NCBI GenBank assembly: GCA_015680905.1
Contig: CM027378.1
Coordinates: 57,189,501 to 57,253,500, forward strand
DNA from: Coptis chinensis
Taxonomy: Eukaryota; Streptophyta; Magnoliopsida; Ranunculales; Ranunculaceae
Length of the DNA: 64,000 nucleotides
Direction of reading: 5' to 3'
Part shown: positions 102-58,377 of the stretch, one piece after another
How the letters are laid out: each line of letters begins with the position of its first letter
Position numbering within the stretch: the first letter of the stretch is position 1
Position numbers and translations under genes: made by a program
The notes under the pieces: model-generated
Databases searched by the model: none
What the model was told of the DNA's origin: nothing
The model's input: the letters and a program-made list of their open reading frames with translations, nothing else

Positions 102-1522
102 GTCAGTATCACTAGAAACAATAAATTTTTTTATTAGAATTATATCCTTTATCTGAGCCACTATCGCTATATATAGTATAAGTATATAATATATTATTTA
201 CTAAGCACGTATTGAGGTCACGAGATGGTAATGTCGGGGTTCGAGGTGAAGAACTGTGTCTCAAATGCATACGTTCTTGACATTGAACCAGGATTGTTTC
301 GAGAGAGTGTGTATAAAGTTAACACAAGTTTTTCTCCTAGCCATACTGTCAAAGATTATAATTCAAAATCTAATTAGTATAAGGATACACAGGTAATTTT
401 GAAACACTCAAAGCCTAAACCCTAAGTAGAATAATCTTGAAAAAGAAGATGGTGAGATCAGTTAAAATATTATCACCAAATGATAAAATGGGAATAAGGA
501 ATAGCATGTTAAGTTATTTTTTGGTACTAACCTGATATTATGCAGAGTGATTTGTTGAAAGCAACACGAGTACGGCCAAAACTGAGCTTTTTTGAAGACG
601 TTAATGGTGGTGGGGTTTAGGTGTTTTTTTTCAAGCTTGTTTGCAAAGTGAAGAGAGAGAAAATGAAATAAGGGTTTTATAATTTCAAAAATGAGGAAAG
701 AGAAAGTGAAATACGGCGTTTGTAATTTCGATGTAACCGGGTTGTATACAGCTGTAACCGCTTGAGTTTTCAAATTTTGAAATTGGTGAAATTTGTTTTG
801 GGTCTCGAAACATTCAAAATTTTCAAGGTTAAAATTTGAAAGTTTCGAGAGGGGGCGATGTCGTGGGCAAATATCGTCACTCCGATATTCCAGACCAGAT
901 ATTGTGATATATCAATAATGGTTATTAGAGTTGGTAAATTACAGGTTTAAGGCAGAAAAAGTGAAGGAAGAAGAAGGGTATGGACATGCGGCAGTTGGTG
1001 ATTGGTCAAAGCTTTTCTCAAACGCTATATAAAGACTAGAAAGGAAGAAGATGATTCATTCCAAAATCATTATAGAAAATCTGTAAACTTAGAACAGGAG
1101 AGAGAAAGAGAGAGAATATTGTAACTGACATTGTTCTTTAATAACAATTTCCTTTTCAACTCAATTCCATTCTTAACCTTTACTTCTAGTAATCCGTTCT
1201 TGTCAATTTTAGTCAGTTTCTTCTGATCACTACAGATAGTATAATAGAGACTATAGCCTATAGGAGCCAATTAATATGTATTTGGAAGAATATGAGTCGC
1301 TATTCAGAGAGGACTCTAGTAATATTTGTAGCACCACTACACTTGTTTAATTGATTTTTTTAAGAAAACGAAAAACAAAAGGTTGGGTGTCTGATTGAGT
1401 AGGTCTATGAGGTTATCAACATCGATGGATATTGTGAAGCATTCCTCTTATGGGGTCCAAATGTAGTTGACCAACAAGATCCGTCATTTGGACCGCTCCA
1501 GTTAGAAAATCTAGCAGCCAAG
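102..1522. other. Unassigned AT-rich flank with an LTR-promoter-like stretch
   Basis: No gene is supported here. A stretch from about 859 to 1250 resembles the promoter and R/U5 part of an LTR: it begins TGTCGTGGGC, has a TATA-like CTATATAAAGAC near 1024-1035, and then a purine-rich run followed by TTGTAACTGACATTG and TTAATAACAATTTCC. I found no second copy in the window and no target duplication, so it could equally be a decayed fragment. Confidence 0.3.
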
Positions 1523-2181
1523 TGTTTTAATACCGATACCAATTGATCCCCACTATACATATAATTTGTATTTGAACTCACTTCAACTCTAGACAAATTC
1601 TAAATATTCACTACAGCTGACCTAGCATGCCCAACTCTCTAAACAACTATTAACAACATATAATAATGTAAAGAAGTAAAACGCATACCACAACACAAAG
1701 ATATATCGTGGTTCGGCCAATGGTGCCTACTTCCACAAGAGCTAATCCTTTTATAAAGTGGGAAGGATGATTACAATAACTCCTTTCAGTCTCTCACCTT
1801 ATTAGATCACTCCTCTCTCTTTACAGGCTTTTCTCTTTATAAATGTTATCTCTCAATCTTGATTGCTTTCAAGATTGGTTTTTCTCTCTCTTGTTTGCCT
1901 TAGTTCGTGTTGCTTAGGTTTTCCAAAACCTTGTTTCTATTTATATAGTGACCCATAATCTCGCGGTTACTGTAGCAACTAGAAACTACAAAAATAGACA
2001 TGGGCGCGGGTGCGCCTTGGGCAAGACCAATGTCGAGCGCGCACGCCTTCAATAATTGTAAGTTGTTCACGGCATGGGCACTAGCGCGCCTTAGGTAAGA
2101 CCAATCTGAGCGCGCGCGCGTTCAGAATTCTTCACACAAACAGAACTTCTTTCTCTCCTCATGTGAGGGATAACTCCAACA
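1523..2181 (-). repeat. 3' LTR of the Copia element
   Basis: This copy begins TGTTTTAATACC on the plus strand and ends with AACTCCAACA, so in element orientation it starts TGTTGGAGTT. It matches 6127-6770 along its length except for a 4-bp deletion near its left edge and a G+C-rich diverged patch around 2000-2120. The TATA-like TATTTATATAG near 1938-1948 may be the remains of the LTR promoter (antisense as printed). Confidence 0.92.
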
Positions 2182-2194
2182 ATCTCCCCCTCCC
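2182..2194 (-). other. Polypurine tract of the Copia element
   Basis: On the minus strand this reads GGGAGGGGGAGAT, immediately upstream of the 3' LTR. That is the position and composition expected of the plus-strand primer of an LTR retrotransposon. Confidence 0.8.
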
Positions 2195-2381
2195 GAACAG
2201 TGAGGGGGGATACCTTCATGCAATTTCCAAATCAACAGGAGGAGTGTGCTACCATTCCAGCGGTAGCACAACAAACATCAAACTTACCTTTCGGTAAGAC
2301 TTTGGTCATCATATTCGACCCGTTCTTGTCGGTATGGATCTTCTCAATGCACAAATGTTTGTCTTCGAGTACTTCTCTAAT

Positions 2382-3794
2382 CTAATGATAACGCAGATGT
2401 ATGTGCTTGGATCTAGAATAAAAACTAGGATTCTTGCTCAAATGGATGGCGCTCTGACTGTCACATAGGACTACAAACTGTTTCTGCTTTAGCCCTAGTT
2501 CATTGAAGAACCTCTTCATCCATAGCACCTCTTTGCAACACTTAGTGGCTGTAATATACTCGGCTTCTGTAGTGGAGAGGGCAACACACTTTTGCAACTT
2601 AGATTGTCACAAAACTGCTCCCCCTGCAAAAGTAACCAGATAACCGGAGGTAGACTTCATCGAGTCAACATCACCTGCCATGTCTGCATCAGTGTAGCCT
2701 TCAAGTAAGGGCTTACTTCCACCAAAACACAAACCCAATTTCGAAGTGCCCTTAAGATATCTCAATATCCACTTAGCACCTTCCCAATGCTCCTTACTCG
2801 GATTTGACAGAAAACATCTTACAACGCCCACGGCGAAAGCAATATCCGGTCTTGTACACACCATTGCATACATTAAGCTACCCACTGCGGATACATAAGG
2901 AATCTTTTCCATTTGACTCTGCTCATGCTCACCATTTGGACACATCTCTTTGGTCATGCAGAACTGACCACCAAGCAGACAACTGACTAGCTTCGCTTGA
3001 TCCATGTTGAATCTCTTCAACACCCTCTCAATGTAGCTTTCTTGAGAAAGCCACAACTTCTCACTCTTTCTATCACAAGTGATTTGCATCCCAAGTATCT
3101 GCTTTGCTTGACCAAAATCCTTCATCTCAAAGGACTTACTCAAGTCTTTCTTCATCTTGGATATCTTGTTGATGTTTGGGCCAACTATCAACATATCACC
3201 CACATACCGCAAGAGCACTATGAAATCCCCATCTGAAAATTTCTGAACAAACATACAATGATCGAAAGCAGACTTCTTGTATTCTTACTTCGCCATAAAG
3301 GAATCAAACTTTATGTACCACTATCTCGGTGCCTACTTCAACCTATACAAGCTCTTTTTCAGCTTGCATACTAGGTGCTCATTGCCTTTGACCTCAAACC
3401 CCTCTAGCTGGTCCATGTAGACATCTTCTTCAAGGTCTCCATAAAGAAAAGTTATCTTGACATCTAGCTGCTCAACCTCCAAGTTCATACTTGCGATCAT
3501 ACCCAATACCACCCTGATAGAAGTCATGTTGACTATAGGAGAGAAAATCTAATCAAAGTCAATACCTTTCCTTTGACCAAATCCCTTCATAATAAGGCGA
3601 GCTTTGTGCCTTGGGTGTGGATTGTTCTCCTCATGCTTGACTTTGTAGATCCACTTATTCTTGAGAATTTTTCTTCCGTTCGGTTTTTCAACTAACTTAT
3701 AAGTGTGATTCTTATGCAAAGAATCCATCTCATCATGCATGGCCTTCAACCACTTCTCTTTGTTTGTACCTTCAAGTGCCTCTTGATAGTACAT
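2382..3794 (-). pseudogene. Copia reverse transcriptase and RNase H, broken
   Basis: Minus-strand fragments at 3549-3794, 3333-3527, 2607-3254 and 2382-2597 together make the Copia RT plus RNase H. Visible landmarks are WLKAMHDEMDSL and NKWIYKVKHE at the RT start, VEQLDVKITFLYGDLEEDVYM in the palm, KSTSGYLVTFAGG before RNase H, and LSTTEAEYI and KHIHLRYH at the C-terminus. The catalytic box that should read YVDDM is YVGDM here, so one active-site aspartate is lost. Several stops and frameshifts separate the fragments. This copy cannot encode an active enzyme. Confidence 0.9.
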
Positions 3795-4132
3795 AGGTTC
3801 TCCACCATTAAATAGTAAAACATACGTATATGGTGGATACCTGGTTGAAGCTTGTCTCTCTCTATTTGACCTCCTTGCCCATCTGCTGGTGCCTCAGGAG
3901 GATGCACTTCTGCTTGTCCAGGTGGTGGTTCATGCACTTTACCTGCATCTTCTATACCAATAGGTTCTATCCCATCATGAGCAATAAGATTCTCATCATG
4001 AGCTTCAAGCCCATGGTTTTCTGTATTCTCAATACCTTCTACACGTTCCACAATAGAAACTTTTGGTTCTGAATCAACATGATCATTAGTGAAAGCTTAT
4101 AGCTTCTCACCCTCCTCAAAGTCTGCTATGGT

Positions 4133-5032
4133 TTAGTCTTCCAAGAACACAACATCTCGACTTCGGATTACCTTCTTGTTAATCGGATCATAGAGTTTGT
4201 AGCCAAACTTCTCATCCCCATAACCCAGAAAAATGTACTGCTTGGCTTTGTCATCAAGCTTGGATCTCTCATATTTCAGAATATAAACAAATGCCTTGTA
4301 TCCAAATACCCTAAAGTATCCATAATCAACATCTCTGCCTGACCATACTATCTCTAGATAATCACTATTCAGAGACTTTGACGACAATAGGCTGATCACA
4401 TGCACGGCTGTACGCATTGCTTCTACCTAGTAACTTCTAGGTAACTTAGAGTGAGACAACATGCATCTCATCCTCTCTACAATGGTCCGGTTCATTCTTT
4501 CTGCTATTCCATTCTGTTGCGGTGTCTTGGGAACGGTTTGCTCATGACGAATCCCATGACTCTTGCAATACTCTTCAAACGGTCTTATATACTCACCCCT
4601 ATTATCTGAGTGAATACAGTTCAAAGGCTTCCCTGTATCTTTTTCCACCATGCTGTGGAATGTCTTGAACACGCCAAGTACTTCATCCTTGGTCAGACTA
4701 TATGCATATATCTTTCTTGACGCATCATCAATGAGAGTCAAGAAGTACAAAGCTCCTCCATGGGACTTTACTTTCATAGGATCACATAAGTCAGTGTGAA
4801 CTAGCTCAAGGACATTGTCCTTTCTGTGAGACCGGAATCTTTGGAAAGACACCCTGTGTTGCTTTCTTACCAAATAGTGACTACATCTATTTAAATGTGT
4901 ACCTATGATGTATGGCAAGGCCTTTTGTTTGGCAAGAACTTCCATGCCTTTTTTGCCCATATGACACAGTCTCTTGTGCCATAATTCAGAGGAAACTTCT
5001 TCTTCTGCCGCATTTACTTTTGTTTGACACAA
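4133..5032 (-). pseudogene. Copia integrase, broken
   Basis: 4427-5032 carries the GAG-pre-integrase zinc-binding segment (LWHKRLCHMG) and the rve core. The D-D-E residues are visible in HTDLCDP, HSDNRGEY and NGIAERMNRT. 4133-4417 is the C-terminal SH3-like part (FRVFGYKAFVYI, KAKQYIFLGY, VIRSRDVVFLED). A stop near 4427 separates the two. An acidic linker toward RT is visible at 3746-4051. Confidence 0.9.
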
Positions 5033-9430: not shown

Positions 9431-11946
9431 ATGGCCTCAATTAGGATCTTTAGGTGTCACCATCAGGGTAAATGGGTAGAGGATGGACAATATATGAAAT
9501 ATGTTGGTGGACAATATGTAGATTCTGAGGAATGGGATTATGATTACGCAAATTTGATAGACCTTGTTGCTTGGATCACTTTAGCATTTGGTGTCCCATC
9601 TGGAAATGTATTGGAAATATGTTGGTTGCATGGTGGAAACAAAACTAGTCTAGATACAGATCAGATGTGATGTTCATGTGGGAATATGCAAGAGTTGATG
9701 CAAAGGGGTTCACACATATCTTTGTAAATTGGCATGAGTTGGATGTCATTTCAAGTGATTCAAGTGATGATGAAAATAACTCTGAAGGTGAAATACCACA
9801 TGTTGTGGACTCTTCCACAGATAGTGAAGATGAATATGTATATATGCATGGCAGAAGATGTAGAAAGGGAAATATGTTTGACTTGGATGACTGGCCCACT
9901 ACAGAAGACTTTGACTATGTTATGAAGAAGACAGCAAATTTGAGGTCCCCACCATTGCTATTGCCATATTATTCTGAAGACAAGAAAGATAGTGGCCCTA
10001 GTCTTAAAGTAAAGGGAAAGAGAGTTGTTCAAGAACAAGATCAACAACCCACATCCATTGAAGTTGAGGAGCTGTCTACATCTACTGGAGTTGCAGGTAT
10101 GTGTAATTACAACCAAATTATTTTAATATCTGTCTACATCCAAATTTTTCCAAAGACTTCTTTTATAATTCTTGTATGTTGCTTGAATGATTTAGGTCCT
10201 GATGCAACTCAAAGTTCTAGATGTGAATTCAACATTGACCAGATAGATGCAGCAGAGCATTACTACAGTCAAGATTCATCTGATGAGGAGTATGTACCTT
10301 CTAAAAATAATTCAAGTGGTGAAGAGTCTTTGTTTATTTGATGAGGAGTCTTTGTTTGCTGAAGAAGAGGATGGAAATGGTTTAATTGCTGAAGAAGATG
10401 AACCAATACAACCAAATGTTAGGACACAAATAGTTGAGGATGATGATGTAATAAATGTGTTGGTTGAAAACACATTTAATATTCTAACTGATGAGGGAGA
10501 GACTAGAACTAATGATACATCAGTTAGGTTGTTTGTAGGTCAGAAATGGGCTGATAGATTCTTGTGTAGAGATTATCTGAGGTTGTGTGCTATTAAAAGA
10601 AAATATAGTATGAAGTTCAAGAAAAATGATGCTCTGCAGATTGAAGCTGTGTGTAAGGAGGAAGGTTGTAAATGGAGGGCTTATTGCAGGTGCATGACTA
10701 AGAGGAGTACATTCAGATTAAGAAGGTTGAATGATGTTCACACTTGTACAAAATGATAGAAAAGATAGAAACCCTATGGCAAATGCAAACTTGGATAGCA
10801 AAAGATATTGAGAAAGACATGAGACTTCATTTCAAGAGCTACAAACCAATGACATCATCGAAAATCATTTGGAATAGATATCAAGTTAAGATTAAGTATT
10901 GGCAAGCTTGGAATGCCGGGAACTTAGCAATGGAAATGATTCATGGAAGTTATGATGAGTCTTATGCAAAGGTTCATCACTTTGTTTGCATATTCTCAAC
11001 TCCAACCCGTGTTCTATTGCTAAATTCTCTAGAAATGCTAACTACATGAGTTTTGAATGGGTTTGTATTGCTTTCAAAGCATGTTTAGATGGGTTTGTCA
11101 GTGGGTGTAGGCCTTTAATAGGTCTTGATGGATGTTTTTTAAAGGGGAAACATGGGGGTGTATGTCTGTCTGTTCTAGCATTAGATGGAAATAATGGATT
11201 GTTTCCACTAGGTTTTTTTTATTTGTATTTCAGAAAACACTGAGAATTGGACTGAATTTCTAGATATTATGGCACCATCCTTGAACTTACATCCATCTAG
11301 ACCCACCATAATTTCGATAGACAAAAGGTTTAGGTAATGCAATTGCCACAGTGTTTCTGATTGCAATCAAAGATATTGTTTTAGACACATGGTGCGTAAC
11401 ATGAAGACAAGGTTTAAGAGTCTTGAAGTGGAAGCATGGAATGCAAAGAAAAGCATTTGGGGAAGCCGACTTTAATAAAAATATGGAGTTGCTTGAGAAA
11501 AGATGTAGTGATGCCAAAGACTACTTGATGACCGAGGAGCCTAGGTTGTGGGCAAGGTCACACTTTGACACTCGAATGTAAAGGTCAACCACCTCTCTAA
11601 TAACTTCTCTGAATCATGGAATAGTTTTATATTGGATGCTAGAGACAAGCCTATTGTGAAGATGGTTTCCAAGATAGTGATGTTACAAATGAAGTTGATC
11701 TATGATAGAAAGGGGAAGTTTGTAGACTGGAATGAGAATGATCTAGTACTAAGGGTGAAAGATATCTTAGCAAAAAGAGAGAATGAAATTGGTGATTATG
11801 AAGTTGTTGGTTCAAATGAGGATAAGTTCTGTGTGACACATAAGTCTGGACATTGGTGGATCATTGATTTGGTACAATTAAGTTGTACATCAGAGAAATG
11901 GCAAGTGTGTGGAATTCCTTGCATTCATGTCACATCAAGTTATTAA
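9431..11946 (+). pseudogene. MuDR-type MULE transposase, broken
   Basis: The likely start is ATG 9431, just after a splice-acceptor-like GCTGCAG. The N-terminal segment (MASIRIFRCHHQGKWVEDG) is PB1-like, as in plant MULEs. An acidic Ser/Asp/Glu stretch follows, with an intron at about 10097-10195 (GTATGT...TTTAG). Next come the MuDR DNA-binding domain at about 10520-10755 (VGQKWADRFLCRDYLRLC, with cysteines and histidine in CKEEGCKWRAYC and DVHTC), part of the DDE core near 11125 (LIGLDGCFLKGKHGG), and a SWIM-like end near 11895-11940 (WQVCGIPCIH). At least four frameshifts and several stops interrupt it. One SWIM cysteine appears as serine (SCTSEKW). Confidence 0.88.
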
Positions 11947-17769: not shown

Positions 17770-19912
17770 ATGTCACAACAAATGGCTTCCAACTCTACGC
17801 AACAACCCACCATAACTTCGTTAACTGATGGTAGTGTGACTGCCCAAGCTGAAAATAGCGTTGTTCCACCTATAGGTGATCAGCCTCCTAACGAAGCCAT
17901 GACGACACGAAAGAGGAAGGCACCAACGAAGACGTCAAAAGCTTGGAAAGATTTTACTGAAGTAATAGTGGGTGGGATTAAGAAAGGGAAATGCAGCCAC
18001 TGTTTTACAGAACTTGCTGTTACTAGGGGGTCTACGAGTAGCCTTCTTAGGCACCGACTTACTTGTATACCTCGAAAGGCTAGCATCTCTGGTAAGGGTC
18101 AGCAACATCTATTACATTTTGGTGCTGATAGTGGTAGTTCTTTAAGTACTTACAAGTTTGATAAAGACATGATAAAAGAAGTAATTGCTAAGATGATTAT
18201 GGTGCATGAGTACCCTTTTAGAATGGTTGAACATGAGTGCTTTTTGTTGCTTTGTAAAATGCTTAACCCACGATTTGAGGTAGTGAAACGCAAAGCTATT
18301 AGGCAGGAATGCATAAGAGTTTATGGTTGTGAAAAAGCTAAGTTAAAGTTAAAGTTAGCTAGTGTCGATAGAGTTAGTCTAACTTCAGACTTGTGGACCT
18401 CAAATCAAACGAACAAATTTTACATGTGCCTCACTGGACACTACATGGGCTCTGATTGGAAGTTACAAAAGCGTATCTTGAACTTTTGTCGTTTGCCCCC
18501 TCCCCATACTGGTGTTGCCATTGCAGATGCAATTCATGAGTGTCTTATTGAGTGGGGACTCGAAACTAAGATTTCAACAATCACCCTAGACAATGCATCT
18601 TCAAATGACAAAGCTATAAGTAGTTTGAAAACTATTTTTGCATCCAATGAAAACCTGTTTTTTGGTGGTAAGATATTTCATGTTCGGTGTTGTGCCCATA
18701 TTTTGAACCTCATGGTGCAAGATGGGCTGAAAGAGATTGACGGAGTGATTGTAAATGTGCGAGAGAGTGTCAAGTATGTGACTTTGACTCCTTCACGACT
18801 TCACAAGTTTAATGAAATTGTCAAACAATTGCATCTGCCAATTGCAACCTCTAAAAGCTTGCCTTTGGATGTTTCTACTCGCTGGAATTCTACTTATGCT
18901 ATGTTAGCAACTGCTATTGAGTTCAAAGATGTGTTTGTGAGGTACCAAGATAGAGAACCCAACTATGTTTGGTTACCATCTGATGAGGATTGGGAGCGAG
19001 CTGAAGAGGTGTGCAAGTTCTTAGAGATTTTTGATGAAGTCACACTTATTTTTTCTGGAACTTCCTATCCTACTTCAAATCAGTTTCTCCCTGAAATTTG
19101 GAAAATAAAGGAATTGTTGAATGACATGATATTTGATGAGAGAGAGTATATTAGGAGCATGACTAAGGAGATGAAGGATAAGTTCGACAAATATTGGGGA
19201 GAGTGCAACCTGTTAATGACACTTGCAGCAGTTTTAGATCCTCGGTATAAGATGATATTGATTAATTTCTGTTTTCCTAAGATTTATGCACCCGATAAAC
19301 TTCAGAAATGTAAAGATGAGGTTAAAGATGCTTTGTACGACTTGTTTAATGATTATGTTTCAAAAGATGCAGAAAGAAATGCTAATAGTGTAGCTAGTGG
19401 TAGTGGAGTTGGTGCTTCAAAGGTGAAAACTAAGAGTAGGAATGAGTTTGATACGTGGGCGAGGCAATTGGATATGGTTCAGCCAAACAAATCTGAGTTA
19501 GATATATACCTAGAAGAAAGCATTTACCTACCTGGAGAAGAGGATGCTGATTTTGATGCTTTAACTTGGTGGAAAGCAAATACTCTTAAGTTTCGACACC
19601 TTTCAAAACTGGCTAGGGACATACTCTCTATTCCGGTTACCACCGTTGCTTCGGAATCAGCTTTTAGTGCTGGTGGTAGGGTTCTTGATCAGTATCGTAG
19701 CTCATTAAAGGCTGATGCAGTTGAAGCTTTGCTTTGCGGCGGAGATTGGTTGCGCGGTGATAGTGGGATTGAAGAGTTGTTCAATGTAAGTGCTTAATTG
19801 ATTTTTCTGTTTAAATTTATTTGTTATAATGCTTTTGTAATATTTATCTTGTGATATAAAATTGGGCGTTTAATTTACTTTGTAGGTTGAGGAAGAGAAT
19901 AATGATGATTAA
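17770..19912 (+). CDS. hAT family transposase (zinc finger BED, RICESLEEPER-like)
   Basis: The start is ATG 17770, a few bases after an acceptor-like TTTTACAG, so a 5' untranslated intron is likely. Exon 1 runs to 19785. A donor GTAAGT (19786-19791) and acceptor TTTGTAG (ending 19885) lead to a short last exon (19886-19912) encoding VEEENNDD and stop, giving 680 residues. Without splicing the frame would end three codons later. The N-terminus has a BED finger (CSHCFTEL...LLRHRLTC, about residues 76-101). The middle is the RNase H-like core (DLWTSNQTNKFYMCLTGHY, ITLDNASSND, RWNSTYAML). The C-terminus is the hAT dimerisation domain (ARDILSIPVTTVASESAFS). It should cut and paste this element and related non-autonomous copies. 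No frame damage is visible. Confidence 0.93.
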
Positions 19913-46592: not shown

Positions 46593-47295
46593 TAGCACTA
46601 CTAAAAAAATCACTTATAATGACAGCTAAAAGCTGTCATAAAATAGGTTTAATGACGTTTTTTCATTAAAAAAACAACCGTCATTATAGAGCCCGTCATA
46701 AAAGTTTACAAAAACCATCATTAGTTTGATGACGGTTCTCGAGAAGCTGACATAAGAACTCCTACTTACATGACATAAATTCAATTCCAAATGTCATAAC
46801 TTGGTCTGTTTCAATGACCACTTTTACTCAACCGTCATAATTTTACTAGGAAAAGTGTCAAGAAGTAAATCGGATTATGATAGTTTTAAGGAAAGCGCCA
46901 ATAACTAAACACTAAAAAATGTCAAGAAGTAGCATGCGTAACGACAGTTCTTTGAAAACCGTCATAATCTTGTCTCATTTTTCTTTTCTTTTTTCGCACC
47001 CGTAGTGTATATATCCTGCAAATGTTTTTGCTCCACAAATTTTCCTACAAATCTGGAGATACCCAGTAAACCCATGAATACATACACCCTAACAAATCAA
47101 ACTCCATTACAAAAACTAGAATCATATATACTTTTATTACCAACATAAATCACCTACTCCAACAACTTGTTCATATTACATGATGTATTCACAAAGAAAA
47201 TAATAAATAACTCGAACAAAGTCGCATAATCCTAATAATTCAATTTACATAACTCATCCAACAAAATACAAAGCAACTGATGATACTGATCCACC

Positions 47296-49193
47296 TCAAA
47301 CAAACTTAAGCGAGATACCAAGCTGGTGTTTCCTTATAACTCTTTCCTTTCTCGAACGCCACTGATTCATAACCTAGAAAACAATATGAAGAATAATTAT
47401 TAAACTAAAAATGTAATTATATGTTAGCTTGTTTAATAAGTATACTAAAAATGAAATTATATAAGAATCCAAAAAGAATGCTAGCTAAAACAACAGTCGT
47501 TGCCGTCCGATATTTCTACAGAAACAACAGTCTTCAATAGTATACCGAGTCTATGTAGCGCAACTTTTTAAAAAGAGAGATGGTACTCCACTGTGTCAAC
47601 CTGCATTTGTTTTATGCCTAAGTGAATATAAAATCTTAGGACATGATAAAAGCTAAATAGGAAGAGACCTTTGAGCACAAACCTGAAATGCATTCCCAAG
47701 GGCTTTATATCTGTCAGTTTGACTAGTGCCACCACCCCTAGTGGGGTTCTCTGGATATCCCATAATCATCTCTAACTCGTTGGGCTCAAGAGGTGCTGCC
47801 TTATTCTTCCCTGTCCACACCAAATTCCATTTCCTACATTCGTAAAGAACATACTTTTGAGTCTTAAAGGGCGACCATCATCCCAACATTCAAGCGCATC
47901 TTTAATTCGTTGTGTTGTTTTTGCACTTTCAATGCAAGTACGCAAGAAGTTAAACTTTTGTCTACGGTCCCATGATGGCCACCATTTCTTAGTTACTGGT
48001 AACGCTTCCTGAATTGTAAGTGGAGGAACAGGTTGGAGAGGCTATCTGTTGTGGATTGGAAGGTTGTGAACATACCTCTTTTCCGTGCAGCTGCACTAAA
48101 ATGCATCGAGTCAACAAATTCAGGTTCAATCTCATATAGGAAGCGAGAAATTTTACTACAAATCCCTTTCAAAGTACATGCCACATTTTCAAAATAAAAG
48201 TAAGGAGGTCCAATGGCTGCATCTAGGAGCTTCCTCTGGAACATTGGCCTTGGCTCATTTGGGACTCCAAATCCGATCATGAACTTCGGTATGTGAATTA
48301 CATCCTCCTCTTCTAGGCATACTTTTTTATAATTCCTGTATTCCTTTGCTTTCCTTATTCTAATTTGTATTTTTCTCTCTAATCTGTCATCTGCATCAAA
48401 GAGATTTTTCCTCTTCTCAACTCAGAGCGAGAACATCCAATTGTAATATCTGAGTCGGTCTATAAAAAATAAAAATAAATAAAAAATAGTTGTTATGAAG
48501 AACAAGAACAAGGTCTACTAGGTACTACTTGCACCTTTCAACCAAAAGAATAATATTGATTATATTCTGCTTTCGCTAATGAAAAAATTAAGTGCACCAA
48601 GGAAAAATTAGAATATCAAACACAAGTGAATGTCTACCAAGCGCACAACATCATCTTGAATTTGACGAGGTGGTTCTCGTATAGGAGAACCAACTTCCTT
48701 TTGCACTCGAGCAGCATATATAAAATCTATCAGATCTGTAACTAAGGTGTCAGGACCTGCAAATATATAAACTTATTATGGAATCAAAATAGAGAAGGAA
48801 ATAGCTATAAAAAGTAAATATTTTTGACAGTACAAAAGGAATTCATACAAGTAGGAATAAGTAAATACATTTTGAGCCTCTAGAAGCCGTTTGTGAGGCA
48901 GCTGATAACCAATTAGCCACGACAAACACTTATACACATGTTATATCCTTCCACAATGGTCTGAAGAAATCAGAAATAACTCGCTCCTTTTCTTTTAATA
49001 GGTAATATAATAAAACACTAAGACCATCTAAAATCTTATGCATACAAGTTCTAAAAACATAAAGATCAACATTGTAACTGCTAGATACACACCACATGCA
49101 TCAATAGCTGAAGAAGACTCATCTATTGAGAAATCCATATCAATCAAGTGTAACAATTTCTTCTCATTGTCTGGCAGAAGTCCAACATCCTCC
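47296..49193 (-). pseudogene. Captured fragment of a DRM-type de novo DNA methyltransferase gene
   Basis: Exon-like blocks with fitting splice sites lie at 49093-49193, 48638-48756, 47683-48459 and 47296-47373. The first two encode a UBA region (SSSAIDACG joined to PDTLVTDLIDFIYAAR). The third encodes the DRM-specific methyltransferase half: IGFGVPNEPRPM, AIGPPYFYFENVACTLKG, EPEFVDSMHFSAAARKRG, LTIQEALPVTKKWWPSWD, CRKWNLVW, EPNELEMIMGYPENPTRGGG and TDRYKALGNAFQ. In DRM proteins this half (motifs VI-X) precedes motifs I-V. Motifs I-V are absent; a 25-codon unrelated exon ends the frame instead. At least three 1-nt frameshifts (near 49117, 48415, 48068) and one stop (TAG near 48038) make it non-coding for a full protein. 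Intact DRM proteins place de novo methylation in RNA-directed DNA methylation. Confidence 0.9.
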
Positions 49194-50314
49194 TGGCACA
49201 AATAGTCACTTAATATGGAGAAGAATAAATTGTTTTATCAAGATTTAACTATAGTATATAGCTACAAGTCTCTGTGTTTCACTGTAAAGGGCTTAAGTAG
49301 ATAGAGAAACACGTATAGACAACAAATATAAAACCAGAAAGTAGTTCCTTTAAGCTTACATACCGGACTGCTGATGAGCATAATATATACTTTATTGTCT
49401 ATGGTTTACATTGTGACTGAAGTAAAGGAGATCATGGAAGTAGAGGTCTGGAAAAACTAATATAAAAGAGGTTATATGAGGCAGCAACTCTGTGCTCACC
49501 AAGTGCAATAACAAAAGATACTAGACTTCAGTTAGTAAGATATAGATGACCAATGTCATGCTTAAGTATTAGCCTTCAACTTAGATGTCTAAGCAGACAT
49601 GTAGTATGTCGGGGCAAAAATTGTAAGCTATAGATCTACCAAGACACTCTTGTGAAAGGTACGGTACTGAGTGTACCAATAGAACAAAGGAGTAATGGAT
49701 TCACATATATAGAATAACTAATGGATCCACCTAGAGTAACCCTTGCATTTCTAAGATGAGTGTATGACTATGAAATGAAGACAGTAAGGACAAGGCCTAC
49801 TAAACTCCAAGTCATACAATGCTAGCAAATTCCAATTGTATCTAATGCCCACTAACTGTTAATAATACAACACTTACCATATACAACACTCACCATATCA
49901 ACTGTTAATCATGACAATAATAATACAACACTCCCCATATCAACAGAATACATGCATTGATGCATACAATCTACATTTTTTACTATAGGTAGTTGAACAG
50001 ATAATGTGCCCCTTTCATATTAACGTCACTGAAAAAATTCATCTCTAAACCGCATGCCATTAAGAATTATTTGTAAAAATAAAAATAGTGCAGCACTTTC
50101 TCTAATTTCTATATATCATCTAAAACAATCTTTAAGACTAAAGAAATTTAATGAAATAAAAAACATCAAATAACAAACAAACACAGAAAAAGGGTGAGAT
50201 TTCAGTTGGGGCTTCGTGGTGGGTACCTTAGCATTTAGGGCAAGTAATTATGAAAGCAACAATTAGTTTGAAGTTGAGATCTTTTTGGCTTTTGAATATT
50301 CTCTGCATCTTTAC

Positions 50315-50385
50315 CTCTCGTTTTTCTGTTTTCCACTCCTACGCTTGAAAACTGAGTCGTTCTTCTCAAATTCGCCTCTTCCCAT
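50315..50385 (-). other. Possible first exon in the CACTA element
   Basis: ATG at 50385 opens a 71-base frame (MGRGEFEKNDSVFKRRSGKQ) that runs to a good donor, GAG|GTAAAG. The region to its right (50400-50680) is pyrimidine-rich and leader-like on the minus strand, with an AG-repeat. It could be the promoter and first exon of the captured gene or of another one. I do not recognise the peptide and cannot show it is spliced to the DRM exons. Confidence 0.3.
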
Positions 50386-51068
50386 TTTAAGTTCGAGTGC
50401 AAATCTCCTTCTTCTCGATTGTTTCAAGACACGTGTGATTTAGATAGAGAGAGAGAGCTTAGCTAGGGTTTCAAGTAGCAGAGGAGGTGGTTTTGTTGTT
50501 ACGGAGGTGGAGTCGAGGGTTGGAGGGTTGGGCTTCTTCTCAATCCCTTTTAATCTCAAGAAGAAGGCGGCGAATAATTAAAGGCTTTCTCTGATTTTTT
50601 GTTTGGTTTGGTTTTTACTGATTAAGGGTTTTCTTCCAAAGACGTGAGCCTTGAGTTGTTGACGCTTCGATTAAACGCACCAACAACCCGTAAGTTTTTC
50701 ACTTTTTCTTCTTGGGTATTTCTCATGACTCCTTAACCACTCTTGACGCTTGACAATAAAATAAAAACACTAATTTAAGGGTCCCTGAATAAAATGTTAA
50801 CCAGCCAAATGTTTGATGGTTTAGGAAATATGGGGGTTATCGGTTGTGCTAGAACCGTCAAAATAATTCTTGATGGGCATATCTTACTTTCGTCAGAAAT
50901 AGAACTATATCAGCTGATGGTTTTGCCAACTAAGTCATAAATTATAATGACATATGTGTTGGTTACGTCAAAATTGGACAAAACCATCAAGAAAATTTTA
51001 AGTACTTTGGTTTATTATATTTCTGACTTGACTATTTTAGGACACCCATCATCAAATTATCAAATTTT

Positions 51069-51250
51069 CTTGATGCTTGTGTTAGACGCGACATAATGTT
51101 GCAACAACCGTTATAAAACCATCATATTTTCTTGACGCTTGTGTTATACGCGACATAATGTTGTAACAGCCGTTATAAAACCATCATATTTGCTTGACGC
51201 TTGTGTTATACCTGACATAATGTTGCAACAACCGTCATAAAAATTTTACC
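51069..51250. repeat. ~61-bp tandem triplicate near the right end of the CACTA element
   Basis: Three copies of CTTGACGCTTGTGTTATACG followed by CGACATAATGTTGCAACAAC begin near 51069, 51133 and 51194. They lie in the subterminal region, where CACTA transposase-binding repeats are expected. Confidence 0.8.
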
Positions 51251-51542
51251 AAAATACTTATCTTGACGGTTTTCAATAAAGCCATCAAAATAGATGAAAA
51301 ACATGCGTCATAATATGTCTTTTTTTTAGTAGTGTAGGGAGATGGTATATGGTGGGAATCTCGACCCTCTTTCATGAAAAATTTGGAGAACCACTATACT
51401 ACCTATTTTCGTTTTGTTAACTAGATAACCATATTCTAGTAATGACCCTGTATTCCTATTTCTATTTCTATTTTGTTACTTTAGATTCCATGTAACTCTT
51501 ATTCTTTTATTAATCAATTACCTTTAGCCAAAAAAAAAAAAA

Positions 51543-53689: not shown

Positions 53690-55095
53690 CCAGTCTAATT
53701 AAAAACATGCTCAACTAAGTCCTTTTGAAGATTAGTATGTATAACTTCATTTTTTATCTTATTTCTTGCTTTAATCATCTTATAGACAAAATGAAAACCA
53801 TCCTCTTCCTGAAAGAGACCAGGTATTGTTTCTTTCCTCTGACCTTTCTAATTCCAAACTCCACTTTCACGTTCATTCTCAACAATCATATTATGCATTA
53901 TAATGCATGCCTTCATTATGTCTCCAAGAACAACAACACTATGACAAAGCGCAAAAGCCTTAACAATATGTCATCATGCCTGCAAAACTCCAAACGTCCT
54001 TTCAACATCCTTTCTTGCAGCTTCTTGACGTTGAGTAAAAATCTTTTCATGCTTATTTCTTGGATAACGAATGGCTTGAACAAATGTGCCCCATTTTGGG
54101 TAAATACCATCAGCAAGATAATATCTCATATTGTAGTCATTACCATTCACATTAAATGCAACAGCAGGAGCCTCACCTTGCTCTAATGATTCAAAAACAT
54201 GAGAACGATGAAGCACATTAATGTCATTATGCAAACCTGGCAATCCGAAGAAGCAATGCCAGATCTAACAGTGTTTGTCTGCAACGGCTTCAAGTACCAA
54301 AGTTGGTTCCTTCTTGTACCCTACATGTGTTCCAGTCTATCCACTTGGACAATTCTTCCACACCCAGTGCATACAGTCGATTGATCCAAGCATTCTTGGA
54401 AAACCCCTTGCCGCATTTTCAGCTAATATCCTAGCAGTGTCTGCCTCAGTTGGTCGTCTTAAGTACTCTTCCTCAAACGCCGTGATTATTGCCTTGCACC
54501 AACGCTTCATAGATACATTTGCTGTGGAATCTCCAATTTGTAAATACTCATCCATTGAATCAGAAGAACAACCAGTTGCTAATTGTGCAACTGCAACTAG
54601 TCCCTTCTGTAACCCAGAAATTGCTTGCCGGCCCAATCCATCCACCTTGTCTTTAAAGTAATCGTCGAATGATGCAACAGTTTTCAACATATACATAAAA
54701 AGCTTTCTTGTCATCCTGTACCTTCGTCTAAACTTATGAGGAGGCCACCTACACGGTGTTGTGAAGTAATCCCTCATTATTTTTTGTTTACTGAAATCAC
54801 CACCATCTCTAAATGTGTACTCTCTGCCCTTCACAGATCCACCGCGTTTGTCTGTATCCACATCTTCAAGTTCAATGACTACTTAAGTCATTAATGCCCC
54901 AGCAGTGGATAATAACTGCAACCTCCTCCTCCTCCTTCGCCTCATCATATCATTATGCTTATCTCTTACTCTTTCCATGTAGTCATCTTCAGCCGAAGTA
55001 CCAGAAGACAACCCGGTAAAATCAGAAGACGAACTATTACTACTAGATCCTCCCCATAACCTTTGGTTAAATGCAATTCTTTCTTCTCTTGACAT
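53690..55095 (-). pseudogene. PIF/Harbinger DDE transposase (HARBI1/ALP1-like)
   Basis: ATG at 55095 opens the frame (MSREERIAFNQRLWGG), followed by a Ser-rich and an Arg-rich stretch. The DDE_4 domain spans FTTPCRWPPHKFRRRYRMTR, GLGRQAISGLQKGLVAVAQL, GSIDCMHWVW (first Asp), FGLPGLHNDINVL (second Asp) and KDVERTFGVLQA (Glu). It ends with ACIIMHNMIVENE. The reading stays in register from 55095 to at least 54240. Stops occur at 54883-54885, about 54337 and about 54270, with more after VLQA. The stop after KNCPSG replaces a conserved tryptophan, again a single G-to-A type change. Confidence 0.88.
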
Positions 55096-56322: not shown

Positions 56323-58377
56323 CTATACTGACAAATCTGCTACCACTATAGCATCTACTGGTGGAATAGGTATGCTCATATCTTGCCCCTGAGAAGTAAT
56401 CATGCTGTAGTGCCAAAGGTCATCCTCATCAAATATCTGTGGAGTTCTTTGCGGCATGTGAATATCATGAAACACCTTAGGCTGTGACTGTGGCAACTCC
56501 ACTCTTTCTGGGAAATGAATGTCGGGCCTTAATGCTTCAGAAGTAACCCCTTCAAAATTGGTGCCCCGGTATAACGCACCTAGCAAGAGACCTCGACCAA
56601 CCCTCTTCCAATACAAGTCATAGTCTCCCATAAAAATGAAAGCTAATGCATCTGGCCAATCATTTGGGTTTGCTCTATAGTGTGAAAGAGTAGCAGGAAG
56701 AATATCAGAGACTGTCATATCTATGGGTGGTGGGTAAGGTATAACAATCTCTCCAGATACTTGCTGCCAACATTTGTCCCCAAGGTACCATGCAGTTACT
56801 GACCCTATAAGTATCATTCGCCGCTGAGAAAGAAACCTTGCTCTATGACACATATAGGATAGTCAACAGTACTCAGTGTTCTCGAGAACATCTGGACTAT
56901 CCGCATAAGGGGTCTGAAATATGAAGGACTCAACCTAGGGTTGCCACTCAATGCGGGTAGCTCCTAAAAGCTCAATCTGCTGACGAGTGTTGTGAATATT
57001 ATGCGATAGGTCCCCATACCCCCTCTGCCTACGATGAAGCCCCCATGCTTGAATACGTGGAATCAGGTCATGAGTCTCATCCTCTTCCAACCTCTTCAAC
57101 ACAGGATGCATCACATGAAAATGTTCGTACCACCAATACTAAATCAATAGAATAAATACAATATCAATATATATATATACATGTCAACATTAACAACTAG
57201 ATAAATAAATGAAATGAAATAATAACTTAATAAATAAGACTTACCGGTATAATCCAAACAAAGCCACACAAATTGCCTTTAGCGGCTTTCGTCTCAACTG
57301 TGAGGTCTAGCCAGCGGTAAAGGTATGCCAAGATGGATTGACCCTAGTCATAATCCCACATCCTCTCTACGTCTGAGATAGCGGCCATCCACCCAATACG
57401 TAAATAACTATCAGCATATCCAAATAATACCGCGCCAACAAAGTAGAAGAGGAAGGCACGTACATACTCGTGGATCGACTCCTCACTAATATGGTAGTCT
57501 TTCGGCTTCTCTTTGAGTCTATTCAAATATCTCAAAGTAAACCAACTCATATTTATAGCTCTTCCCTTAAACTGCTCAGCCGATAATCTAAAAAACACGT
57601 CTTCCTCATCATCTTCATCCAAATCAAAACCTTCAAAGAAACTCATCGCCGTAGTAAAAACCTCTAAATTTTCATCAAAAGGAACGACATCTCCATAACC
57701 AATTGGGATACCCGTGAGCATTGTGAAATCAAGAGGGGTAATCCCAAGCTCACCCCATGGGAAATGGAATGTGTGGGTAGTTTTCCACCATCGCTCAACT
57801 ATCCCAAACAACAACGCTTGATCATTTTGTCCCAAATTAGAATTCAAAAAATTCCCAAATGGTGTGGCGGCTATAATATTGGTAACCGTGACAAAATTAG
57901 GATCCGTTTTTGACTTCATACAACGCCACCACGACACAACATTTGAAAGTGCACAATGCACTTTCCATAGGTGTACTTCCTACATTCAACCAACACGCAA
58001 TACGATATAATTACAACTAATTTTTTTTTAAAACAATGCGACAAATTCAAACTAATTACACAGCAACAAACTTGATATAAACTAACATAAATAATAATAA
58101 TTAACATAAAAAAAAATCTAAAACTTACTTGAGACTCCGCCACTCGATTGGCTACGTGTCTGATCGATGTTGATGCTAATGGTGGGTGTTCCTCGATTTC
58201 ACAACGCGGTGGAAAATTGAACCCAAGTTCAATTTCGTCCTCCTCGCCCACATTTTGCATTTGCGACGACAAACCTTTTTGCCCCTTTTTTTTAGAAATT
58301 TTAAAACTTCCAAACCATCTACTACGCTCTTCGTGTGGTGAGGTTGGTGGGGATGCATTGGGGGGTAAAGAAGTCAT
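56323..58377 (-). pseudogene. Plant mobile domain (PMD) gene carried by the PIF/Harbinger element
   Basis: Three exons with GT-AG borders and phase-0 junctions: 58129-58377 (MTSLPPNASPPTSPHEERSR), 57245-57979 and 57138-56323. Exon 2 has the PMD signature (LLFGIVERWWKTTHTFHFPW, GITPLDFTMLTGIPIGYG, FLFYFVGAVLFGYADSYLRI and MAAISDVERMWDYD). Exon 3 continues in PMD style (WYEHFHVMHPVLKRLEEDE, SVTAWYLGDKCWQQVSGE). The total is about 599 codons. Only three in-frame stops break it: 57344-57346, 56935-56937 and 56863-56865; no frameshift is seen. PMD proteins such as MAIN and MAIL1 act in genome stability and silencing, and PMD genes also occur in other transposons. It lies on the same strand as the transposase. 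Confidence 0.85.

Follow-up and report, generated by a model that had tools for sequence, protein, structure and literature searches.

A CACTA element of Coptis chinensis appears to have captured part of a gene for a DRM-type DNA methyltransferase and to have carried it to several places in the genome. DRM-type de novo methyltransferases are enzymes of a kind that plants use to silence transposons. The element is non-autonomous, measures 4,739 bp and lies on C2, at positions 46596-51334 of the window (the whole stretch of 64,000 nucleotides that was analysed). The capture, proposed in a preliminary description of this DNA, is strongly supported by the sequence comparisons: the putative donor locus lacks CACTA ends, the copies share their cargo breakpoints, several of them have target-site duplications (TSDs) of their own, and the insertion can be set against an empty site. 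We consider it highly probable that a Pack-CACTA element of this species copied ~2.1 kb, introns included, from a DRM paralog at locus L012, that the element with its DRM block then transposed to at least five sites, the window among them, and that the cargo is a passenger, lacking the region of the catalytic Cys, broken in frame and neutral in its evolution. Three related elements would afterwards have exchanged most of their DRM sequence for a ketoacyl-synthase fragment. If the cargo acts at all, it would do so as RNA, through small RNAs directed against the donor or against DRM paralogs of a second clade. Most likely, we infer, it has no function.

The CACTA ends and the flanking TAG duplication were found as first described, with both termini starting CACTACTA and TAG on either side of the element. 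The 28-nt inverted arms (46596-46623 and 51307-51334) are 86% complementary, and 62-bp tandem repeats are present at 51042-51242, at the right end. Terminal inverted repeats beginning CACTA, together with a 3-bp TSD, are features of the CACTA superfamily. We found no ORF of at least 150 aa inside the element, and its mobilisation was presumably the work of an autonomous CACTA partner. As a candidate subterminal repeat, the hexamer CCGTCA/TGACGG occurs five times in the left arm, three times in the right part and not at all in the cargo, although these counts are small. The stretch 50005-51011 was considered as a second captured gene and rejected, being common to family member L033; L029 lacks most of it.

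When the flanks were joined over a single TAG, the match was unbroken at the joint in all 40 places scored, out of 358 candidates, with an identity of 90-95%; 35 of these 40 span all 238 bases and the other five nearly so. Unoccupied versions of the insertion site are thus present elsewhere in the genome. The insertion target can be taken for a LINE-like repeat, with an upstream ORF that has zf-RVT. Thus, at this site the DRM sequence does not extend beyond both CACTA ends, since the flanks are LINE-like repeat, and insertion of the element beside a DRM pseudogene is ruled out by those flanks and by the continuity of the empty site.

Table 1. Features of the CACTA element, its cargo and related sequences (window positions unless a locus is named)
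Feature	Position	Strand	Remarks
Non-autonomous CACTA element	46596..51334	.	CACTACTA ends, inverted arms, more copies elsewhere
Target-site duplication TAG, left copy	46593..46595	.	flank comparison and empty site
Target-site duplication TAG, right copy	51335..51337	.	flank comparison and empty site
Native left arm	46596..47498	.	element positions 1-905 common to elements with other cargo
Right part of element	49607..51334	.	mostly common to other family members
Captured DRM block	47499..49606 (about)	-	matched by probable donor locus L012, C6:28.99 Mb
DRM UBA-region exon (as in annotated model)	49094..49210	-	
DRM GPDT exon, GPDTLVTDLIDF...	48646..48756 (ends approximate)	-	
Large DRM exon	47683..48458 (5' end approximate)	-	ENVACTLKG, AAARKRG, KKWWPSWD, CRKWNLVW, TDRYKALGN
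Start of next DRM exon (VDTV...)	47499..47600	-	
First exon of chimeric model IFM89_000652 (MGRGEFEKNDSVFKRRSGKQKNE)	50317..50385	-	transposon right part, common to L033
Last exon and stop of IFM89_000652	47296..47370 (exon 47299-47370, stop 47296-47298)	-	native left arm
Ketoacyl-synthase-bearing stretch	L014:3862-4672, L015:4352-5153, L016:4443-5238		common to three sister elements

The ends of the captured block were set by the alignment with the donor and by the left arm that is common to elements with other cargo: the donor match starts at element position 904, and the arm shared with L029 and L030 stops at 905. The preliminary description had placed the captured piece at 47296-49193. A DRM capture in this segment was borne out, but its extent was not; the block runs from about 47499 to 49606, within the 4,739-bp element, and 47296-47498 is transposon DNA rather than captured DRM sequence. 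The assignment of the DRM sequence to the minus strand was correct: when the frames of that strand were stitched together across the exons, query residues 113-317 aligned with tobacco DRM (4onj, E 1.8e-81) and with Arabidopsis DRM2 (7l4f, E 7.1e-74). The cargo thus has sequence of the DRM-type catalytic domain, which groups with Coptis and Aquilegia DRM proteins in a tree. The Pfam DNA_methylase score stays under its cut-off (17.7 of 22 bits for the cargo, 15.3 for the same exon of host gene L017), which we attribute to the missing catalytic half.

Introns with matching splice phases had also been described. The introns and their splice-site sequences are there, but the large exon is not intact: with L017 as the reference, two deletions of 1 bp, near 48074 and 47870, disrupt its frame. 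In addition, the window copy has lost ~55 bp with motif I at about 47562/47563, a stretch that is present in L009, L010, L011 and L013. The large exon reaches TDRYKALGNAFQ, the start of the next exon follows, and the captured block ends ahead of the catalytic SPC motif, so that the window copy does not hold a SAM-binding motif and a catalytic Cys in an open frame. An intact methyltransferase as cargo is ruled out by the frame breaks, the missing catalytic motif and a dN/dS of about 1.

The parent DRM gene, which the preliminary description had expected in the same genome, is probably L012 on C6, judging from the alignments. Over element positions 904-3011 (about 47499-49606 of the window), this locus is 87-94% identical, depending on copy and stretch, and its DRM homology continues past both ends of the block, into upstream exons and the C-terminal exon. 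In 9.5 kb around the locus, we found neither CACTA ends nor, at E 1e-10, any similarity to the parts of the element that flank the cargo. A host gene fragment lying between transposon ends, with its donor elsewhere, is what is expected of a Pack-CACTA element. The host genes L017, L018 and L019 were ruled out as donors in favour of L012, as they are only 74-78% identical. Because the identity of L012 to the elements is itself no higher than 87-94%, a nearer, unsampled donor is possible. A protein tree based on a gapped alignment of residues groups the donor with the elements at a support of 0.999; monophyly of the elements with respect to it is weak, at only 0.576. L012 has a 0.67-kb intron insertion (gene-sense about 3597-4271) that is absent from the five elements, and the insertion is therefore probably later than the capture.

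L012 is broken as well: its GPDT exon carries a frameshift, a TGA is present, sequence is deleted where the last intron meets its exon, and a stop falls at the catalytic SPC. It does not have the first large-exon deletion, at codon 118, and it carries a 17-bp deletion at codon 184. The TGA, at a CpG site, is common to the donor and three of the five elements (L009, L011 and L013), which could indicate a more complex history.

Other CACTA copies with the same cargo, a search for which had been suggested, were found in the genome with a 1,898-bp query: at least five elements (the window copy, L009, L010, L011 and L013) carry the large DRM cargo. Genome counts given here are lower bounds, 40 candidates having been scored in each DNA search, out of 147, 121 and 467. 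The boundaries of the cargo are the same in all five elements, of which L009 has 1.6 kb extra in its right part and L013 shows a cargo gap of ~90 bp. An exact 3-bp TSD was present in five of the eight two-ended copies examined (the window copy, L009, L011, L013 and L015) and was imperfect in the remaining three, with two of three bases alike in L010 and L014 and one of three in L029. The DRM carriers therefore occupy five separate sites, four with an exact TSD and one (L010) with two of three bases, as expected if the cargo was multiplied by transposition. Capture presumably preceded this amplification. In L011 and L013, small substitutions and indels are clustered in the same places but differ between the two copies, and these may be assembly or polishing errors.

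Three more elements (L014, L015 and L016) share arms with the DRM carriers but retain no more than a remnant of the DRM block, most of which is replaced by about 0.8 kb with a fragment of a ketoacyl-synthase gene, identified in L014 as beta-ketoacyl synthase (PF00109, E 4.3e-28). L016 lacks the first 431 bases. L029 and L030 have the left arm in common with the others and contain a third filling, between element positions 905 and 3053. A search of the genome with the left arm returned at least 47 matches, of which at least 14 cover the full 705 bases with an identity of 90% or higher. The alignments describe what appears to be a Pack-CACTA family with turnover of its cargo, comprising DRM, ketoacyl synthase and the third filling, in which the DRM piece probably came first and the ketoacyl synthase followed.

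Frame breaks in the large exon, listed relative to L017, differ among the copies. The window copy, L009 and L010 share one 1-bp deletion at codon 118 and another at codon 188. In L011, two deletions of 1 bp are listed for codon 118 and none for 188, and L013 has a 1-bp insertion at codon 118 and a 2-bp deletion at codon 188. For the same exon, dN/dS was 0.88-1.99 between elements and donor and 0.41-1.1 between elements (0.41 for the L011-L013 pair), and 0.17-0.30 when the donor or the elements were compared with L017 and L019. In four aligned copies (window, L010, L011 and L013, with L009 left out), divergence in the exons was similar to that in the introns and arms. Because of the frame breaks, the dN/dS values and this pattern of divergence, the cargo shows no visible coding constraint, and it appears to evolve neutrally, with a dN/dS of about 1, although the value for the L011-L013 pair counts against this.

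The state of the donor allows a further reading, in which capture killed it: siRNAs from the multiplied cargo would have methylated the donor paralog, which then decayed. Pairwise dN/dS values of 0.17 (to L017) and 0.24 (to L019) argue that the donor lineage was long constrained, and the gene is broken today. At sites where the five elements agree, the donor branch has six non-synonymous changes and one synonymous change since the split (six and two when three elements are used), and the stem of the elements has two non-synonymous and no synonymous changes, with two undetermined (two and none with three elements). Taken with the low dN/dS to L017, the changes on the donor branch suggest that constraint on the donor lasted until roughly when it was captured and then ceased, although the numbers are small. 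The counts are indeed tiny, and the donor may already have been dying when it was captured; we therefore regard its killing by the cargo as unlikely. A broader version, to which we give slightly less credence, would see here another CACTA capture of a gene of the DRM family, independent of the rice one and made in an early-branching eudicot. Its siRNAs would have silenced the donor and so helped to kill it, and they may still act on the C3 DRM genes; the case would then be convergent with miR820 of rice but operate by siRNA rather than miRNA.

A search of the genome with an Aquilegia DRM protein gave 63 matches. The gene at C1:31.4 Mb (L035) is of the canonical DRM2 type, with open large and C-terminal exons, and both exons are also open in L017 on C3. 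For L018, 11 kb from L017, N-terminal DRM exons were not matched in the stretch examined. L019 (C1:58.64 Mb) appears to have lost the catalytic segment SPCNNLTGSN in frame, which recalls the catalytically mutated DRM3 described in PMC2965745. Degenerate DRM-like copies with many stops were observed on C2 at 9.98, 103.1, 107.4 and 107.3 Mb (L020-L023).

In rice, CACTA elements carry a DRM2-derived fold-back, pre-miR820, the source of a miRNA against OsDRM2, as described in PMC3459959. The preliminary description had speculated that the captured piece helps the element to escape silencing. In a reading for which rice is the precedent, siRNAs or a miRNA from the element would lower host DRM expression, and the element would evade RNA-directed DNA methylation. 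The existence of at least five copies is in keeping with this idea, and so are the 21-mers that the cargo has in common with the donor and with the second DRM clade (L017 and L018 on C3 and L019 at C1:58.6 Mb), some of them near-identical. At zero, up to one and up to two mismatches, respectively, 21-mers of the window copy matched L017 12, 36 and 141 times, L018 11, 31 and 78 times, L019 7, 32 and 99 times, and the donor 664, 1356 and 1690 times. Segments of L017 match the window at 48176-48214, 48053-48077 and 47842-47867. In contrast, a comparison with 4.7 kb around L035, the canonical DRM2-type gene, gave no 21-mers at up to two mismatches for four of the five copies, and two for L011. Near-perfect pairing of the miR820 type is thus all but absent for L035 and partial for the paralog L017.

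A cargo stretch that folds better than its shuffles is a further point in favour of such a role. The best fold, at 48485-48734 on the minus strand, reached a z of -3.76 in the window copy; it is branched, however, and not significant in L010 (-0.89), L009 (-1.16), L011 (-1.47), L013 (-1.60) or the donor (-0.47). Being confined to one copy, it was rejected as a miR820-like hairpin, and a stable DRM-derived fold-back precursor was not found. Two weaker windows on the plus strand of the cargo had a z of about -2.8 (first scan, 12 shuffles, window copy), and Rfam gave no match up to E 0.5. The strongest fold found in the element lies outside the DRM piece, at its left end (46596-46845, plus strand; z -4.83 with 200 shuffles). 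The first scan, in which each stretch of the window copy alone was shuffled 12 times, likewise gave its lowest z at this end; a stretch at the right end had a z of -2.52. With a coding-dead cargo whose exons are not conserved among copies, no conserved miRNA-like hairpin and almost no 21-mers in common with the canonical gene, the proposed anti-silencing role received no support, and we judge it improbable. Small RNAs may still have a more limited effect, against the donor paralog or the DRM genes of the second clade (C3 and C1:58.6 Mb).

The NCBI model IFM89_000652 (P0125) overlies the element, which encodes all of its 235 residues in pieces. It joins a transposon exon, the UBA region, part of the methyltransferase domain and another transposon exon, and its stop codon coincides with the left boundary, 47296, given in the preliminary description. 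The most likely account of this model is that gene prediction read across the element and its cargo. A truncated, DRM-like chimeric protein acting as a dominant-negative would agree with a 235-aa model that can be read exactly from the window element, but it is hardly credible, since the model omits the GPDT exon and splices around the frame breaks, contains no Pfam family at E 0.01 and comes from a neutrally evolving cargo, and since the model annotated on L009 (P0122) has a different structure.

As an element, the Coptis copy looks like an ordinary Pack-CACTA when set beside those treated in PMC8903248, PMC13317346 and PMC8616336. Like the Pack-CACTA and Pack-TYPE elements described in PMC8903248 (Pack-TYPE elements: Catoni 2019, as cited in the review PMC13317346), it is non-autonomous, has CACTA ends and host gene fragments, and belongs to a family with cargo from several loci; what sets it apart is that the captured gene is of the DRM family. 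With rice miR820 it shares a CACTA element holding a piece of a DRM gene, of exon and intron sequence, that was multiplied by transposition (PMC3459959). The rice piece, according to the same source, is the fold-back precursor of a 22/24-nt miRNA for which cleavage of OsDRM2 has been shown, whereas the Coptis piece is about 2.1 kb long, is without a conserved hairpin, would derive from a paralog within the DRM family and has scarcely any match in the canonical DRM2-type gene. Soybean Tgm-Express, as reported in PMC1947982, is also a CACTA element with host gene fragments and chimeric exon combinations; there the captured fragments are alternatively spliced, and in Coptis we have a gene model only. 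VANDAL elements likewise interact with host silencing, but their VANC is an active anti-silencing protein (PMC10398659), and no functional product is indicated for the Coptis element. For maize, captured fragments are described as siRNA reservoirs against their donor genes (review PMC13317346).

In the parts of the open-access literature that we consulted, we found no prior report of the Coptis DRM capture, and rice miR820 was the only other example of a CACTA element bearing a DRM fragment. With a second example, from a distant plant, it can be asked whether the recurrence reflects a benefit to the transposon or the random pick-up of genes by Pack-CACTA elements. The neutral evolution of the cargo is a useful counter-example in this respect, and with a donor that was long constrained and is now dead, a possible cargo-donor conflict can be put to the test.

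Elsewhere in the window, we observed a long open hAT transposase frame of 675 aa (17770-19797, plus strand; PF14372 and PF05699), fragments of MuDR (10247-10756, plus strand; PF03108) and Plant_tran (54337-54861, minus strand; PF04827) transposases, and a fragment of a plant mobile domain (57344-57961, minus strand; PF10536).
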